This document shows, piece after piece, positions 7,610 to 42,726 of a stretch of 64,000 bases of DNA. How positions within the stretch are numbered: position 1 is the first letter of the stretch; every line of letters begins with the position of its first letter. Under the pieces are notes generated by a model. The model had not been told where the DNA came from, searched no databases, and saw nothing but the letters and a program-made list of their open reading frames with translations. Origin of the DNA: Acidobacteriota bacterium (GTDB lineage: Bacteria; Acidobacteriota; Vicinamibacteria; Vicinamibacterales; JAFNAJ01); NCBI GenBank assembly GCA_023384575.1, contig JAHDVP010000002.1, positions 216,222 through 280,221 on the forward strand, written 5' to 3'. Both the position numbers and the translations under genes were made by a program.

Positions 7610-8967
7610 GCCCCCTCTGGCGGCTGTCGCTTCGCAACCTCTCGCGCAACCGGCGGCGCAACCTGGCCACGGCGTCGGCCGTCGCGCTCGGTTACGCCGC
7701 GCTGATCCTGATTGGCGCCTGGGTCACACGGGTCGAGTCGTTCCTGCGCGTGAACGCCATCTACCTTCAGCATCACGGGCACGTGGCGGTGTTCCAGGCC
7801 GAGGGCCTCGAGAAGGCGGCCGCCCGGCCGGCGCGGTACAGCCTGACGGCCGCCGACCAGGCGCAGGTTCTCGAGGCCATCGGAGGCGACCCGCGCGTCG
7901 AGTTCACCGGCCGGTACCTGCGCGGCATGGGGCTCGCCGGCAACGGCTGCCGGACGGTGCCGTTTGTCGGCATCGGCGTCGAGCTCGACGTCTACCGCAG
8001 GGCGATTGCGCACCCCGAGGTGCTCAGGGTCAACCCGGAGTTCGCCGTGCCCCTTCGCGGCCGCCCCCTGCCCGAGTATCGCGCCGTCCGCGGGGCGGTG
8101 GGGCTTGCCTCCGGGCTGGCGCGACTGCTCAACAAGCCCCGCGTTCACGACGACTTCCCGCCCGACGCCGAGCTGATCCTGGTTCCCGACTGCACCGCAC
8201 CCGACGCGGCGGCCCAGGTCGCCTCCGACGCCAACGTGCAGCTCGCCGGCCTCTCGTTCGACGGCTCGCTCGCCGCCGTCGACGGCGAGGTCGTCAACAT
8301 CTTTCGGACGCCGTCGATCGACACCGAGGACCAGACGGTGCTGACGTCGCTCGAGACGTTGCAGGAGCTCTACGGGACCGACGCCGTCACCTACCTCGCC
8401 GTGTACCTGCGCGACGGGCGGGAGACGGCGACGTTTGCCGCCGATCTCGCACGACGCCTCGAGAGCGCCGGCGTGGCCTCGGCCGTGTACGCCTACGACG
8501 ACGATCGGCTCAATCCGTTCTACGTCGGCACGATGGCGTTTCTCGCGTCGCTCGTCACCTTCATCGCGTTTCTCGTCACCTCGGTGGTCGCGCTCGGCGT
8601 CATGAACGCGATGACCCTGACGATGCTCGAGCGCACGCAGGAGATGGGCACCTTTCGCGCGCTCGGGTACCGGCGCCGCCACCTCCTCGGGCTGTACGTC
8701 CGCGAGAGCGTGCTGCTCGCCGCCGCGGCGCTCGCGGCCGGCCTCGTGCTGGCGTACGCCGCGTCGGCGCTCGTCAACGCGCTCGATCTGCGGATCAGCC
8801 CGCCCGGCGTGCCCGGCACGCTGCGCGTGTACATCATGCCGGGCGCCGGCGTCGCTCTCGCCGCGGCAGCGCTGTTGCTGCCGTTGACGAGCCTGGTGAC
8901 GTGGCTCGTCGTCCGGCGGCGCGCGCGGCTCGAGACGGCGACGCTGCTGACCATGGCGACGGCATGA
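7606..8967 (+). CDS. FtsX-family ABC transporter permease (first of two)
   Basis: 453 residues. One N-terminal transmembrane helix (about 25-48, NLATASAVALGYAALILIGAW) is followed by a large periplasmic domain (about 50-300) and three C-terminal helices. The FtsX/MacB C-terminal hallmark is MTMLERTQEMGTFRALGYRR just after the second helix. This is the 4-TM MacB/LolC/E topology in which ATP hydrolysis moves a periplasmic domain rather than passing substrate through the membrane. It is coupled to the ATPase by ATGA. The partner permease at 9802 shares the topology, so a heterodimer like LolCE is the natural model (inference). Confidence 0.9.
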
Positions 8968-9022
8968 CGCCCGGATGTCGCGGCAGACGGCGACGTCGGC
9001 GTCGCCGGAGAGGACCGACACG

Positions 9023-9802
9023 ATGATGTTCGCCGCCCCGAACGGTCGGCACCGTCTCGCGAGGGGACACGCGCCGGCGCTCATCGCCGCCATCCTCCTG
9101 ACGGGCCCGATCGCCGCAGCCGACGGGCCGACGGCCCAGCGCCTCCTCGAGGACGCCGACCGAGCGCGGGGAGGGCTCGCCGCCGGCATCACGTGGAACG
9201 TCACGCTCACGACGACCGAGGACGGCAGGACGTCGGCGCGCACGTTCCTCGTCAAGGCGCGCGGCAACGACGCGCTCGCCGAAGCGCTGTCGCCGCCGCG
9301 CTACAAGGGCGAGATCATGCTGTTCAACGACCGCACGATCTGGTTCCACAAACCGGGCCTGCGCAAGCCGGTCTCCATTTCGGCCAGACAGCGCCTCTCT
9401 GGCGACGCCGCCAACGGCGACATCGCGAGCACCAACTACGCGCGCGACTACGAGGGCACCATCGTCGGCGAGGAGGACGTCGACGGGGAGCCAACCTATC
9501 GGCTGGAGCTGAAGGCCCGGGCGCGCAACGTGACCTACGATCGCATACGGTACTGGATCTCGAAGGCACGTCACCTCGGGGTGAAGGCCGAGTTCCTCAC
9601 CGTCGGCGGCGACGTCTTCAAGACGGCGACGTTCCTGTACGGCAACCGCCTGAAGGCCGATGGGCGAGAGTTCGACTTCGTGAGCCGCATGACGATTCGC
9701 GACGCGACGGGTGCCGGCACGACGACGGTCCTCGAGTTCGGTGCCCCGAAATCGGAGACGCACGCGGCGTCGCTCTTCAACATCAACAACGTGGTGCGTT
9801 GA
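9023..9802 (+). CDS. Outer membrane lipoprotein-sorting protein, LolA-like
   Basis: 259 residues with a signal peptide (HAPALIAAILLTGPIAAADG). The mature part matches the LolA-like domain found beside MacB/FtsX cassettes: FLVKARGNDALAEAL, MLFNDRTIWFHKPGLRKPV, SARQRLSGDAANGDIASTNY, and the C-terminal MTIRDATGAGTTTVLEF. LolA-like folds shield an acyl chain in a half-barrel, so this is the probable periplasmic carrier between the permeases and the outer membrane. The start at ATG 9023 follows GGAGAGG. It overlaps the next gene as TGATG, which fixes it in the operon. Confidence 0.88.
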   Translation: MMFAAPNGRHRLARGHAPALIAAILLTGPIAAADGPTAQRLLEDADRARGGLAAGITWNVTLTTTEDGRTSARTFLVKARGNDALAEALSPPRYKGEIMLFNDRTIWFHKPGLRKPVSISARQRLSGDAANGDIASTNYARDYEGTIVGEEDVDGEPTYRLELKARARNVTYDRIRYWISKARHLGVKAEFLTVGGDVFKTATFLYGNRLKADGREFDFVSRMTIRDATGAGTTTVLEFGAPKSETHAASLFNINNVVR

Positions 9803-11136
9803 TGACAGGGTCGGCCGTCGCGCCGCTCGCTCGCATCGCCTGGCGCAACGTGCGCAAGCACTGGCGGCACAGCCTCGGCGCGCTGCTCTCGATAGTCGTC
9901 GGCTTCGTGTCGATTGGGCTGTTCGAGGGTTACCTGGCCGACCTCGAGGACATCCAGGCGGAGTGGTACGTCAAGCGCAGCATGCTCGGGAGCGTCATCG
10001 TCGAGCGGCGAGGTGCGTTCGAGGCCGCGGGGCGCGAGGAGCCCTTCCGTTACTCGCTCGACCTCGACGACCAGCGGCTCATCGATGAATTTCTCCAGGA
10101 GCGCGCCGGCGACGTCGAGGCCCGCGTGCGTTTCCTCATCGCAAGCGGTCTGGCGAGCACCGGGCCGACCGGCGTCGTCTTCGCCGGGTGGGGCTACGAC
10201 GTCGAGGATGCCGCGCGGCTGCGCGGTGAGTGGTCCTGGAACACAAGCGGCGGACGGCCGCTGCACCAGGCCGGCCCGGAGAGCGTCATCACGGGCAATG
10301 GTCTCGGCTCGTTGCTCGACTGTACCCCGCCGCCAGCCGAACAGGCACTCGGTGCCGATGGCCGGCCCGTGCCCGAAGTGCGCTCGTTCACCTGTCGAAC
10401 GGCGCGCGTCCAGCTGACGTCGACGACGGAGTCGGGACAGCTCAACGCGATCGAACCGGAGATCGTGGGCTTCTTCGACGCGGGGCTCAAAGAGCTCGAC
10501 GGACGGTTCCTGCACCTGCCCCTGCCGCTCGCCCAGCGCCTGCTCGACACCGACCGCGTCACCTACTACTCGGTGCGACTGCGCGACCCTTCGCGAGCCC
10601 AGGCGTTCGCGCGCGAGATCGAACGGGCGGCCGCCGCCCGCGGACTCGACCTCGTCGCCGTGCCGTGGTATGCGCATCAGATGGCCGACCTCTACCGCAA
10701 GGGCATGACCGTGCTCGGCCTCTATCGGACCTTCGTCGTGATCATCGTCGTGACGATTGCCGGCATGGCGGTGCTGACGACGATGCTGAAGTCGGTGAAC
10801 GAGCGGATTCGCGAGATCGGCACCTTGCGCAGCCTGGGGTTCCGCCGGCGGCACATCGTCTGGCTCTTCACGTTCGAGGCCGCGCTGCTGGCGGCCGTCG
10901 CCTCGGCGGCCGGGTTCGTGGTCACCTTCCTCGTGTCGCGCGCGGTCGCCGTCGCCGGCATCAGCTACAAGGCCGGGCTGGCCGCCCAGGCGATCCCCTT
11001 CACGGTGAGCCTCGTGCCGTCGGCGCTGGTCTTCGCGCTCGTGTTCCTGTCGGCCGTGGCCGTGCTGGCGGCGTTCCTGCCGGCCCGGCGCGCGGCGCGG
11101 CTGCGGATTCCCGACGCGCTAGGTCACGCCGGCTGA
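9802..11136 (+). CDS. FtsX-family ABC transporter permease (second of two)
   Basis: 444 residues, with the same plan as the first permease: helix about 27-47, periplasmic domain about 50-300, three C-terminal helices, and the signature MLKSVNERIREIGTLRSLGF. The sequence is only distantly similar to the first permease, consistent with an asymmetric heterodimer. It contains two cysteines in the periplasmic domain (LLDCTPPP and FTCRTARV) that could form a disulfide. The start overlaps the LolA-like stop (TGATG). This is the last gene of the cassette; a 167-nt gap follows before the serine hydrolase. Confidence 0.9.
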   Translation: MTGSAVAPLARIAWRNVRKHWRHSLGALLSIVVGFVSIGLFEGYLADLEDIQAEWYVKRSMLGSVIVERRGAFEAAGREEPFRYSLDLDDQRLIDEFLQERAGDVEARVRFLIASGLASTGPTGVVFAGWGYDVEDAARLRGEWSWNTSGGRPLHQAGPESVITGNGLGSLLDCTPPPAEQALGADGRPVPEVRSFTCRTARVQLTSTTESGQLNAIEPEIVGFFDAGLKELDGRFLHLPLPLAQRLLDTDRVTYYSVRLRDPSRAQAFAREIERAAAARGLDLVAVPWYAHQMADLYRKGMTVLGLYRTFVVIIVVTIAGMAVLTTMLKSVNERIREIGTLRSLGFRRRHIVWLFTFEAALLAAVASAAGFVVTFLVSRAVAVAGISYKAGLAAQAIPFTVSLVPSALVFALVFLSAVAVLAAFLPARRAARLRIPDALGHAG

Positions 11137-33999: not shown

Positions 34000-35415
34000 A
34001 TGCGGACCGCACTCAGCCACGCTTGGTACACCCTGCGCACGCGTCTCACCGCACGCGTTGCGTGGGACGTGGTGATGGTCTACATCGCCATCGCGAACCT
34101 CACGCTCATCACGTTCGACTTCACCTACCTGTGGCTGCGCCCGGGTTACTTCGACTACGCGCCCCTCGTCACGCGCCTGTACGATCCGGTCAAGGGCATC
34201 GCCCCCCATCCTGGCACCGAGGCCCTGCTCGACCAGGTCGATCGTCTGCAGGCGCTCGTCGACCAGGGCGCGCCGCCGCACGAGGTGGAGGCAGCGCTCT
34301 CGGACGTGCGGGCTGCGAGCCGCGTCGAGCTCGCCGCCAACCCGTTCGAGCGCTCGGGTCAGTCGTGGGCGTTCCGGGCCCTCGAGCGGCGCGTGCTCGA
34401 TCTCGCCGCGACCGAGCTTGGCGTGCCCTCGTCGAGCCTCGATGCGGCCCGGGCCTTCGAGCAGTTCTGGAACGTGCCCGCCGACCGCCTCACCGAGCGC
34501 CTCGACCTGTTCGACGAGATCCAGCGCCCGGCGCTCGCCCGCAATTTCCATCGCGACTACGGTCTCGACGGCCAGCTCGAAGACTACTTCTGGCTGATCG
34601 ACCTGCCGTTTCTCGCGGTCTTCGCGCTGGAGTTCTTCGGGCGGTGGGGGTGGTCGATCTACCGGCGCGAGTATCCGCGCTGGTTCATCTTTCCGATCCT
34701 GAACTGGTACGACCTGCTGAGCCTGGTGCCGGTCAAGGAGCTGCGCTTCCTGCGCCTGTTCCGCGTGGCGTCGATCTACGTCCGCCTCCGCCGCAGCGGC
34801 GCCACCGGCCTCACGACCGACCCGGTGAGCCGCGCGGCCGACTATCTCTTCAACATCATCAAGGAAGAGGTATCGGACATGGTGACGCTGCGCATCCTGA
34901 GCGAGACCCGCGCCGAGCTCACGGCGGGCACCCATACGCGGATCGTGCGGTCGGTCGTCACGCCCCGGCGCGACCGCATCGCGCGCGAGATCGCCACACG
35001 CCTTCAGCACGCCCTCGCGAGCGCCGAGGTCCGCGAGAAGCTGCGCGCGCTCGTCCAGCAGCACCTCGACCAGTCGGTCGAGAGCGCGGGCGCCTTTCGC
35101 ACCATCCCGCTGCCGAACGCCGTGCTCGGCCCGCTCGTGCGCACGATCGGCGAGGTGGTCTTCGATTCGCTCGCCGACACGATCACCGCGACGTTGCAGA
35201 CCGACGACGGCCGCCGCACGCTGGAGGGCGTTCTCGCCGACACCATCGACGGCATCGTCGTCGAGTTGACCGACGGCGAGCTCGAGGCGGTCATCCGCGA
35301 GATCAGCATCGAGACCATCGACCACATCAAGACCCACGTCCGTGTCAGGAAGTGGCTCCAGAACGGCGAGCGCGGCGCCGGGGTAAAGTCTTCGCCGGTC
35401 GTGCCGAATCCGTGA
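34000..35415 (+). CDS. Membrane protein with a voltage-sensor-like S1-S4 module and no pore domain
   Basis: 471 residues. Helices: about 22-46 (S1-like), 196-216 (S2-like, LPFLAVFALEFFGRW with Glu211), 229-244 (S3-like, NWYDLLSLVP with Asp238), and 247-265, an arginine-studded helix ELRFLRLFRVASIYVRLRR with Arg249, 252 and 255 at every third place. That is the classical charge-transfer set of voltage sensors. A charged, mostly helical loop of about 150 residues is inserted between S1 and S2, and a soluble helical C-terminal half (about 270-471) replaces the pore. No selectivity filter exists. Annotation pipelines may call it an ion transporter. Function unknown. Its stop overlaps a GTG of the next gene. 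Confidence 0.8.
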   Translation: MRTALSHAWYTLRTRLTARVAWDVVMVYIAIANLTLITFDFTYLWLRPGYFDYAPLVTRLYDPVKGIAPHPGTEALLDQVDRLQALVDQGAPPHEVEAALSDVRAASRVELAANPFERSGQSWAFRALERRVLDLAATELGVPSSSLDAARAFEQFWNVPADRLTERLDLFDEIQRPALARNFHRDYGLDGQLEDYFWLIDLPFLAVFALEFFGRWGWSIYRREYPRWFIFPILNWYDLLSLVPVKELRFLRLFRVASIYVRLRRSGATGLTTDPVSRAADYLFNIIKEEVSDMVTLRILSETRAELTAGTHTRIVRSVVTPRRDRIAREIATRLQHALASAEVREKLRALVQQHLDQSVESAGAFRTIPLPNAVLGPLVRTIGEVVFDSLADTITATLQTDDGRRTLEGVLADTIDGIVVELTDGELEAVIREISIETIDHIKTHVRVRKWLQNGERGAGVKSSPVVPNP

Positions 35416-41007: not shown

Positions 41008-42726
41008 CTACCGTCGCGACCCGCCGCCCTCGAAGGCTTCCGCGAACGCGCGCCGCTGTTCGAGGCTGCCCAGCATGATGAGCTCGGCCCCCGAATGCAG
41101 GATCGTCTCCACGGTCAACTGTGTCACGAGCACCCCCTCGCGCTTGAGGGCGACCACGCTCAACCCGGTCTTCGAGCCGATGCCCGATTCCCGCAGGGGA
41201 CGATCGGCGAGCGAGGCGGGCACCGGGATCGAGAACAGCTCGACGCCTTCCCCGAGCAGCACGAGGTCGTGACCCCGCAGGATCGAGAGCACGGCCTCGA
41301 TGCCCAGCGATGTGTAGCTCAACACGAAATCGGCGCCCGCCCGGTGGATGGCCTCGACGTTGCGCTCGTAGGTGATCCGGCTGACGATGCGGACCTGGGC
41401 GTTGAGCCGCCGGCAGTACACCGCCAGGTAGATGTTCATGGCGTCGTCGTTGGTCGTGAGCAGCACCGAGGGCGCCTGTTCGATGCCAGCGCGCTCGAGC
41501 AGCCGCCGGTCGGCCGCATCGCCCGAGAACACGCGGTCGACCTCGGTGGCGAGCGACACGAGCGCCCCGGCCTCCCGGTCGATCACGTGCACGGGCAGGC
41601 CCTTGCGCTTGAGCGCGATCGCCGCGGCCTGCCCCACCTTGCCGGCCCCGATCACCAGCACCGGCACGACGGGCGTCTGACGCGCCGGCAGCAGGGCGTC
41701 GAGCGCCGCCACCTGCGGGGCCGTGCCGGCGACCACCACGACGCTGTCGGGCTGAATCACCGTCTGGGGGTACGCCGGCCGCAGGCGGCCGCGTTCCCAC
41801 AGCCCGACGACGTTCAGCCCCGTGCGCTCCCGCAGCCGCGTGCCCCGCACCGTCTCGCCCGACAGCAGCGTCCCCCGCGCCGGCAGCTCCGCAATCTGCA
41901 GGTCGCCGAAGCTTCCGATGACGTGCGCCTCGGCACGGCCCACGTCGACGCGGTTGGCGAGGTACTCGCCCAGCTGGTGCTTGAGCGGCAGGACGTGCGT
42001 CGCCCCGGCCAGTTGGAGGATGTCGAGCGATTCTTCTTCCTCGACGATGGCCACGATGGGCACGTCGGGCGCGACCTCGCGCACGGTCAGCGTGATGTTC
42101 GTGTTCGTCGTGTCGGCGCAGTTGGCCAGAACGAGGCGGGCCGTTCCCGCCTCGAGACGCTGGTAGGTGGCGCCGCTGTCGCTCTCCCCCGCCACCACCG
42201 AGACGTCGTCGCCGACCAGCTGGGCGGCCCGGGTCGGGTCGGACTCGATGACGAAGTAGGGCACGCCCTCGCCCTTCAGGCGATCCACGAGCCCCGCCGC
42301 GACGTCGTCGTGCTCGGCGATGATCACGTGACCACTGGTCTTCGCCGGGACCTTCCGGGGTGCGCGCAGCCGCACCCGCGCCTCGAGCCAGGGGGCGTAG
42401 AACAGCCTGATGAAGAGAAACGGCATCAGGACGAGCAGCAGGAAGACGCCCGACAGCAGGACGACCACGCTGAAGACACGGCCGAGGTCGCTCGTGAACG
42501 TGATGTCGCCGAACCCGAGCGTCGTCATCACCACGAGCGTCCAGTAGAAGCCCGTGACCCACGAGTGCTGCTCGCCCTCGACGTGGAGCTTGATCAGGTG
42601 GAAGACCACTGTGTGCGTGGCGATGACGAGCGCCACAAACAGCAGGTACTTCACGAGCGAGCGCAGGTTGCCCTGCATCTCGCGCTCGCTCACGAGGTAG
42701 GCGAACTCGCTGCCGAGGAACTTCAT
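41008..42726 (-). CDS. Two-helix potassium channel with two RCK (TrkA-N/TrkA-C) modules
   Basis: 572 residues. The pore unit (about 25-105): helix LFVALVIATHTVVFHLIKL, pore helix plus filter WTLVVMTTLGFGDITF (TLGFGD in place of TVGYGD), then helix VVVLLSGVFLLLVLMPFLF. RCK1 (about 125-345) starts HVIIAEHDDVAAGLVDRL and has TrkA-C near GDLQIAELPARG; RCK2 (about 345-572) has VLVIGAGKVGQAAAIAL (GxGxxG) and VHVIDREAGALVSL, with TrkA-C at ELFSIPVPASLADRPLRESG. RCK1 lacks the full glycine motif, so nucleotide binding is more likely in RCK2. A TAGAAT lies 9 nt before the ATG. Confidence 0.92.
   Translation of the reverse strand: MKFLGSEFAYLVSEREMQGNLRSLVKYLLFVALVIATHTVVFHLIKLHVEGEQHSWVTGFYWTLVVMTTLGFGDITFTSDLGRVFSVVVLLSGVFLLLVLMPFLFIRLFYAPWLEARVRLRAPRKVPAKTSGHVIIAEHDDVAAGLVDRLKGEGVPYFVIESDPTRAAQLVGDDVSVVAGESDSGATYQRLEAGTARLVLANCADTTNTNITLTVREVAPDVPIVAIVEEEESLDILQLAGATHVLPLKHQLGEYLANRVDVGRAEAHVIGSFGDLQIAELPARGTLLSGETVRGTRLRERTGLNVVGLWERGRLRPAYPQTVIQPDSVVVVAGTAPQVAALDALLPARQTPVVPVLVIGAGKVGQAAAIALKRKGLPVHVIDREAGALVSLATEVDRVFSGDAADRRLLERAGIEQAPSVLLTTNDDAMNIYLAVYCRRLNAQVRIVSRITYERNVEAIHRAGADFVLSYTSLGIEAVLSILRGHDLVLLGEGVELFSIPVPASLADRPLRESGIGSKTGLSVVALKREGVLVTQLTVETILHSGAELIMLGSLEQRRAFAEAFEGGGSRR

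Follow-up and report, generated by a model that had tools for sequence, protein, structure and literature searches.

In eukaryotes, voltage-sensor domains are found in proteins that lack a pore. Hv1, a voltage-gated proton channel, is a pore-less S1-S4 bundle with cytosolic C-terminal helices, while in Ci-VSP a domain resembling a voltage sensor precedes a soluble, cytosolic domain with enzyme activity. The S4 of eukaryotic Hv1 holds a totally conserved Trp (PMC10377628). According to a 2023 review, all prokaryotic voltage-sensor domains come with an S5-S6 pore, as verified by database searches (PMC10377628), and prokaryotes are reported to lack Hv1 itself (PMC10377628, PMC13095418).

The 64,000-nucleotide stretch of Acidobacteriota DNA analysed here (the window) encodes a protein that departs from this picture. 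It has four membrane segments at the N-terminus and a helical cytosolic C-terminus, and S5-pore-S6 is absent; by anatomy it resembles a voltage-sensor-only protein, and it is not a channel of the PF00520 type. Its S4 (R249-R265, RFLRLFRVASIYVRLRR) has no counterpart of the conserved Trp of Hv1, and the enzyme that follows the sensor of Ci-VSP is replaced in the family by an all-helical domain. A literature search, which left most subscription journals and all preprints outside its scope, found no paper on a prokaryotic voltage-sensor-only family, nor one on the family described here.

The gene and its product

The gene is an intact ORF starting at ATG 34000, upstream of which the open frame continues for two codons only, and its translation agrees with the residue numbers of the preliminary description of this DNA. 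The product was modelled with AlphaFold2 on an alignment of 76 rows, yielding a model that is all-helical and confident (mean pLDDT 88.7, pTM 0.65), with predicted membrane helices S1 (18-53), S2 (197-222), S3 (225-240) and S4 (251-265), after which come a long helix (275-308) and more soluble helices up to residue 460. The features are as follows:

34000..35415, + strand: whole gene of a long-form pore-less voltage-sensor-like protein, 471 residues (ORF analysis)
34051..34158, + strand: S1 helix, residues 18-53, with D23, N33 and D40 (model, conservation, hhalign)
34159..34587, + strand: S1-S2 insert, residues 54-196, a folded helical domain found in the long form only (model pLDDT about 88-98)
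34588..34665, + strand: S2 helix, residues 197-222, with D201, F208, E211, R215 and W216 (FxxExxxR charge-transfer motif)
34666..34731, + strand: basic S2-S3 loop and S3, residues 223-244, with W228, P232, W236-Y237-D238, L240 and P244 (conservation, model, hhalign)
34744..34794, + strand: S4, residues 249-265, with R249, R252, R255, R262 and R265 (conservation, model, family HMM)
34822..35379, + strand: C-terminal cytosolic helical domain, residues 275-460, with an EEVSD motif and weak resemblance to DUF445 (model, hydropathy, Pfam, hhalign)

Homology to voltage sensors

Alignment by hhalign of the family, and of its S1-S4 part, to Ion_trans proteins of Acidobacteriota gave probabilities of 97.3-97.5% (E 1.6e-11 to 7.9e-12 for the family), colinear over S1-S4. 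D40, D201, F208, E211, D238, P244 and the S4 arginines fell on or beside the matching channel residues, D40 being aligned with the Glu that bacterial Kv channels carry in S1 (ALETLP). Among the controls, none of 12 column shuffles exceeded 0.7%; reversing the alignment gave 7.8%, and comparing the C-terminal domain with channels gave 0.0%. The family HMM picks TVGYG K+ channels over S2-S4, the best being a channel of Salinicola (L150, E 1.6e-8) whose nearest solved relative is KvAP, and among the Pfam families matched by the S1-S4 set, PF00520 ranked first in recurrence, with hits at E<1 in 27 of 47 members (best 9.5e-5). Searches with single sequences against Pfam, NCBIfam and PDB returned nothing above cut-off; in PDB sequence searches, the whole-family profile retrieved helical-repeat noise only and the S1-S4 profile had no match.

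KvAP and KvAP-like bacterial six-segment K+ channels (PF00520), such as that of Salinicola, share with the family the order of S1-S4, the acidic residues of S1, S2 and S3, the F/YxxE/D motif in S2, the D-5x-P spacing in S3, and R-x-x-R in S4. They differ in having S5, a pore helix, a TVGYG filter and S6 where the family has a soluble helical domain; KvAP itself also has a longer S3b-S4 paddle. The spacings D201-x6-F208-x2-E211 and D238-x5-P244 are those of Shaker/Kv1.2 (E283/F290/E293; D-x5-P). On these profile comparisons, the family is very probably homologous to voltage sensors while lacking their pore. The central proposal of the preliminary description, that a pore-less sensor module is coupled in one chain with a soluble helical domain, is supported as regards this architecture by profile-profile homology and by charge conservation across phyla.

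Comparison of predicted structures with known sensors, the other check that the preliminary description proposed, brought no significant PDB match. Foldseek of the full model against PDB gave nothing significant (best E 0.95), and its matches, several TRPM3 and other channel chains, were taken as noise (TM about 0.1). For a short relative, the S1-S4 model (pLDDT 85, pTM 0.74) had no PDB match at E<=10. The absent match may stem from a limit of the method or model with short membrane helices, or from the shortness of S3 and S4 themselves. The four-helix arrangement with Arg facing E211/D238 is a prediction supported by homology.

Conservation of the charge pattern

Conservation was counted over 76 relatives, whose identity is about 25-50%. 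W216, P232, W236, Y237, L240, P244, R252 and R255 are invariant, and D23, N33, D201, F204, E211, W228, D238, R249 and others nearly so. The aromatic and acidic residues of S2 and the Asp of S3 that define a charge-transfer centre are found across this set: position 208 is F in 61 and Y in 13 relatives, position 211 is E in 73 and D in 3, and position 238 is D in 74 and E in 2. In S1, position 40 is D or E in 73 of the 76. The S4 arginines keep their three-residue spacing (R249 in 74/76, R252 and R255 in 76/76), the loss of which among homologues had been named beforehand as evidence against a sensor. A basic residue (R/K) also occupies position 262 in 74/76 and position 265 in 67/76. Of the arginine helix as first described, with 249/252/255 followed by 262/264/265, only R264 is not conserved, its position varying among Q, R, H and N. 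Taken from the aligned sequences, the S4/S2/S3 charge pattern is not due to chance.

S3 and S4 extend over only 16 and 15 residues, and the gap from P244 to R249 is four residues in 74/76 relatives, so that the S3b-S4 paddle is truncated. The travel of S4 may consequently be small. In the window protein, the positions of R4 and K5 (258 and 261) are non-basic. A truncated paddle also occurs in pore-bearing channels, since the Salinicola channel has a very short S3-S4 turn.

A helical domain in place of the pore

Neither S5, a pore helix, a filter nor a clear membrane segment was found after S4 in the window protein or its relatives. Past residue 275, the top 19-residue hydropathy of the window protein is 1.25, and only one of 75 relatives exceeds 1.6 after S4. 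A search for the K+ filter motif in the C-terminal part of all relatives found none, the S5-pore-S6 unit with selectivity filter of a whole PF00520 channel was not found, and the hhalign alignment stops after S4. These scans confirm the initial reading that pore helix and filter are absent; low hydropathy after residue 275 and the modelled helices 275-460 likewise agree with its view of the C-terminal half as soluble and helical.

The C-terminal domain comprises about 190 residues. Conserved in it are P370, W452 near the end and, immediately behind S4, an EEVSD/EEISDR motif. DUF445 (PF04286) was considered as its family, given an hhalign probability of 49% and matches at E<=0.1 in 9 of 49 members, and membership was rejected because the resemblance is weak and lies below the Pfam cut-off (20 bits against a gathering score of 33.8). 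The N-terminal part shows no relation between the family and DUF445, whose members are membrane proteins of the YheB/YjiN type (hhalign 0.1%). No enzyme family, including phosphatase/PTEN, appeared among the Pfam matches of the domain, and a signalling or interaction role is therefore more likely than catalysis.

Distribution and two forms of the family

When 100 relatives were sampled, most of them from the host's own order, no carrier of the gene other than the host itself was seen; a phylum-wide sample contained it in 5 of 396 genomes, host included. A small alignment, used as query against 84,980 species genomes, confirmed at least 576 loci. Carriers belong to Acidobacteriota, Leptospiraceae and other Spirochaetota, Bacteroidota, Rhodothermota, Balneolota, Calditrichota, Bdellovibrionota and Myxococcota, and to the gammaproteobacterial genera Alcanivorax, Marinobacter, Salinicola and Acinetobacter; a protein search adds Halomonas and one Nocardia. 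Full-length matches occurred in 6 of 274 genomes in the class of Alloalcanivorax and in 7 of 296 in the phylum of Salinibacter (about 2% each), with one full-length copy per genome in 12 of 12 genomes checked. The family is unnamed, widespread in bacteria and broader than supposed in the preliminary description: the bacterial pore-less, sensor-like protein with a soluble helical domain described there is a member of a large family and not a lone protein. This family, with its at least 576 loci, contradicts the statement that every prokaryotic sensor domain comes with a pore (PMC10377628).

The spacing between S1 and S2 is bimodal, with 9-14 residues in a short form of about 340 residues and about 140-150 in a long form (241-248 in two members). 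The window protein, with 142 residues, belongs to the latter, close to the insertion of about 150 first estimated. Its insert is modelled as about six helices (55-181) and had no match in a Pfam search. In a tree of the shared part, a single branch with support 100/99 divides long from short forms, which indicates that the insert probably changed state once; the window protein lies within an Acidobacteriota long-form group (support 99/98). The basic S2-S3 loop suggests that the N- and C-termini are cytosolic, and if so, the insert is expected to lie outside the cytosol.

Proposed mechanism and alternative explanations

The explanation towards which the analysis leans, by a small measure, is that of a membrane-potential sensor without a pore, in which S4 moves a cytosolic helical effector. 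The sensor keeps the acidic counter-charges D40, D201, E211 and D238, the aromatic plug F208, and the arginines R249/R252/R255. In an energised membrane, the S4 arginines would be drawn inward past F208/E211/D238. Upon depolarisation, S4 would shift outward, tugging the long helix 275-308 behind it, and this pull would rearrange the cytosolic helical domain and so pass a signal to a partner. In the long form, the helical domain outside the membrane would cap the sensor. Functional voltage sensing by the family is rated as slightly favoured, and we infer the role of the C-terminal domain in coupling. The broader proposition, that this is a multi-phylum bacterial family of true pore-less voltage sensors turning membrane potential into a conformational signal of the cytosolic helical domain, is evenly balanced.

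The main competitor, appreciably less probable, is a degenerate voltage-sensor fold serving as membrane anchor or scaffold, with the arginines statically paired with E211/D238 for folding. S1-S4 plays such a part in several non-voltage-gated channels, and the short S3 and S4, the mere three in-register arginines of S4 and the lack of a Foldseek match to voltage sensors would fit it. However, the degree of conservation across phyla, absolute for R252/R255 and nearly so for F/Y208, E211, D238 and D201, exceeds what an anchor needs, and no part of the protein is better conserved than S1-S4 (mean column identity 45% in the sensor part versus 31% in the C-terminus, on partly different row sets).

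Unlikely is a voltage-gated channel for protons (or small ions) of the Hv1 type, with ions passing through the S1-S4 bundle itself and the helices of the C-terminus holding an oligomer together: a pore-less sensor with a conserved acidic S1 residue (D40), N33 and a helical, cytosolic C-terminus recalls such a channel, but S4 lacks the Trp of Hv1, D40 is aligned to the outer Glu in S1 of Kv channels, its match to the selectivity Asp of Hv1 is unsupported, and the C-terminus is a multi-helix domain unlike a single coiled coil.

Gene neighbourhood

Upstream of the window gene lies a gene of the phosphodiesterase family, and downstream one for a serine hydrolase of the beta-lactamase family; neither recurs beside the relatives. 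Neighbours are conserved only within genera, namely an exonuclease/phosphatase-like gene in Alcanivorax, and an acyltransferase gene and minC in Acinetobacter, and gene context hence points to no general partner.

In Acinetobacter, the short-form gene (3752-4798 in L010; also L065 and L085) lies between the acyltransferase gene and minC, and in L010 it adjoins minCDE. Its annotation there as 'preprotein translocase subunit SecA' is apparently wrong, as no SecA resemblance was seen.

Genes for pore-only K+ channels (PF07885) were found within 8 kb of the sensor gene in the window and in L018, L017, L014 and L067. The window channel (41008-42726, - strand) has 572 residues, an Ion_trans_2 domain, a TLGFGD filter and two TrkA_N/TrkA_C (RCK) units; it lies 5.6 kb from the sensor gene and is the only PF07885 channel found in the 5.9 Mb host genome, as the channel of L018 is in its own. 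Those of L018 (5374-6387, +) and L017 (5298-6362, +), both in Thermoanaerobaculia and two genes upstream of the sensor gene, are 2TM-RCK K+ channels with the unusual filters TVGFREA and TVGYREV. L067 has a ligand-gated K+ channel-like gene (8837-9934, -), convergent with the sensor gene, with periplasmic-binding-protein halves around a TVGYGD pore. Elsewhere in the host genome (C20:68240-68863, -; L104), a six-segment NaChBac-like channel with a TLESW filter is encoded.

That the protein is the voltage-sensing half of a split channel, pairing in trans with a pore-only K+ channel from another gene, is the least probable explanation and indeed very improbable, for although these 5 loci (4 independent) exceed the roughly 0.6 expected from 939 kb of flank at 0.61 PF07885 genes per Mb, the excess was noticed after the fact, the neighbouring channels vary in architecture and orientation, most loci have no such channel near the sensor gene, and PF07885 has no match in the assemblies of seven genomes that carry the sensor gene. 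Since it was noticed afterwards and orientations differ, K+ channel proximity is a lead only.

Significance

To our knowledge, dedicated bacterial sensors of membrane potential other than channels are hardly known, and the family bears on how bacteria sense changes in that potential. The short members, of about 340 residues, are compact candidates for gating-charge measurement, with Alcanivorax, Salinicola and Salinibacter as culturable carriers. If the sensor works, the account of how pore-less sensors originated changes, and new parts for voltage indicators become available. Were the proposed function true, these proteins would be the first prokaryotic counterpart of voltage-sensor-only proteins of the VSP/Hv1 type, and would give bacteria a direct route to read their own membrane potential.
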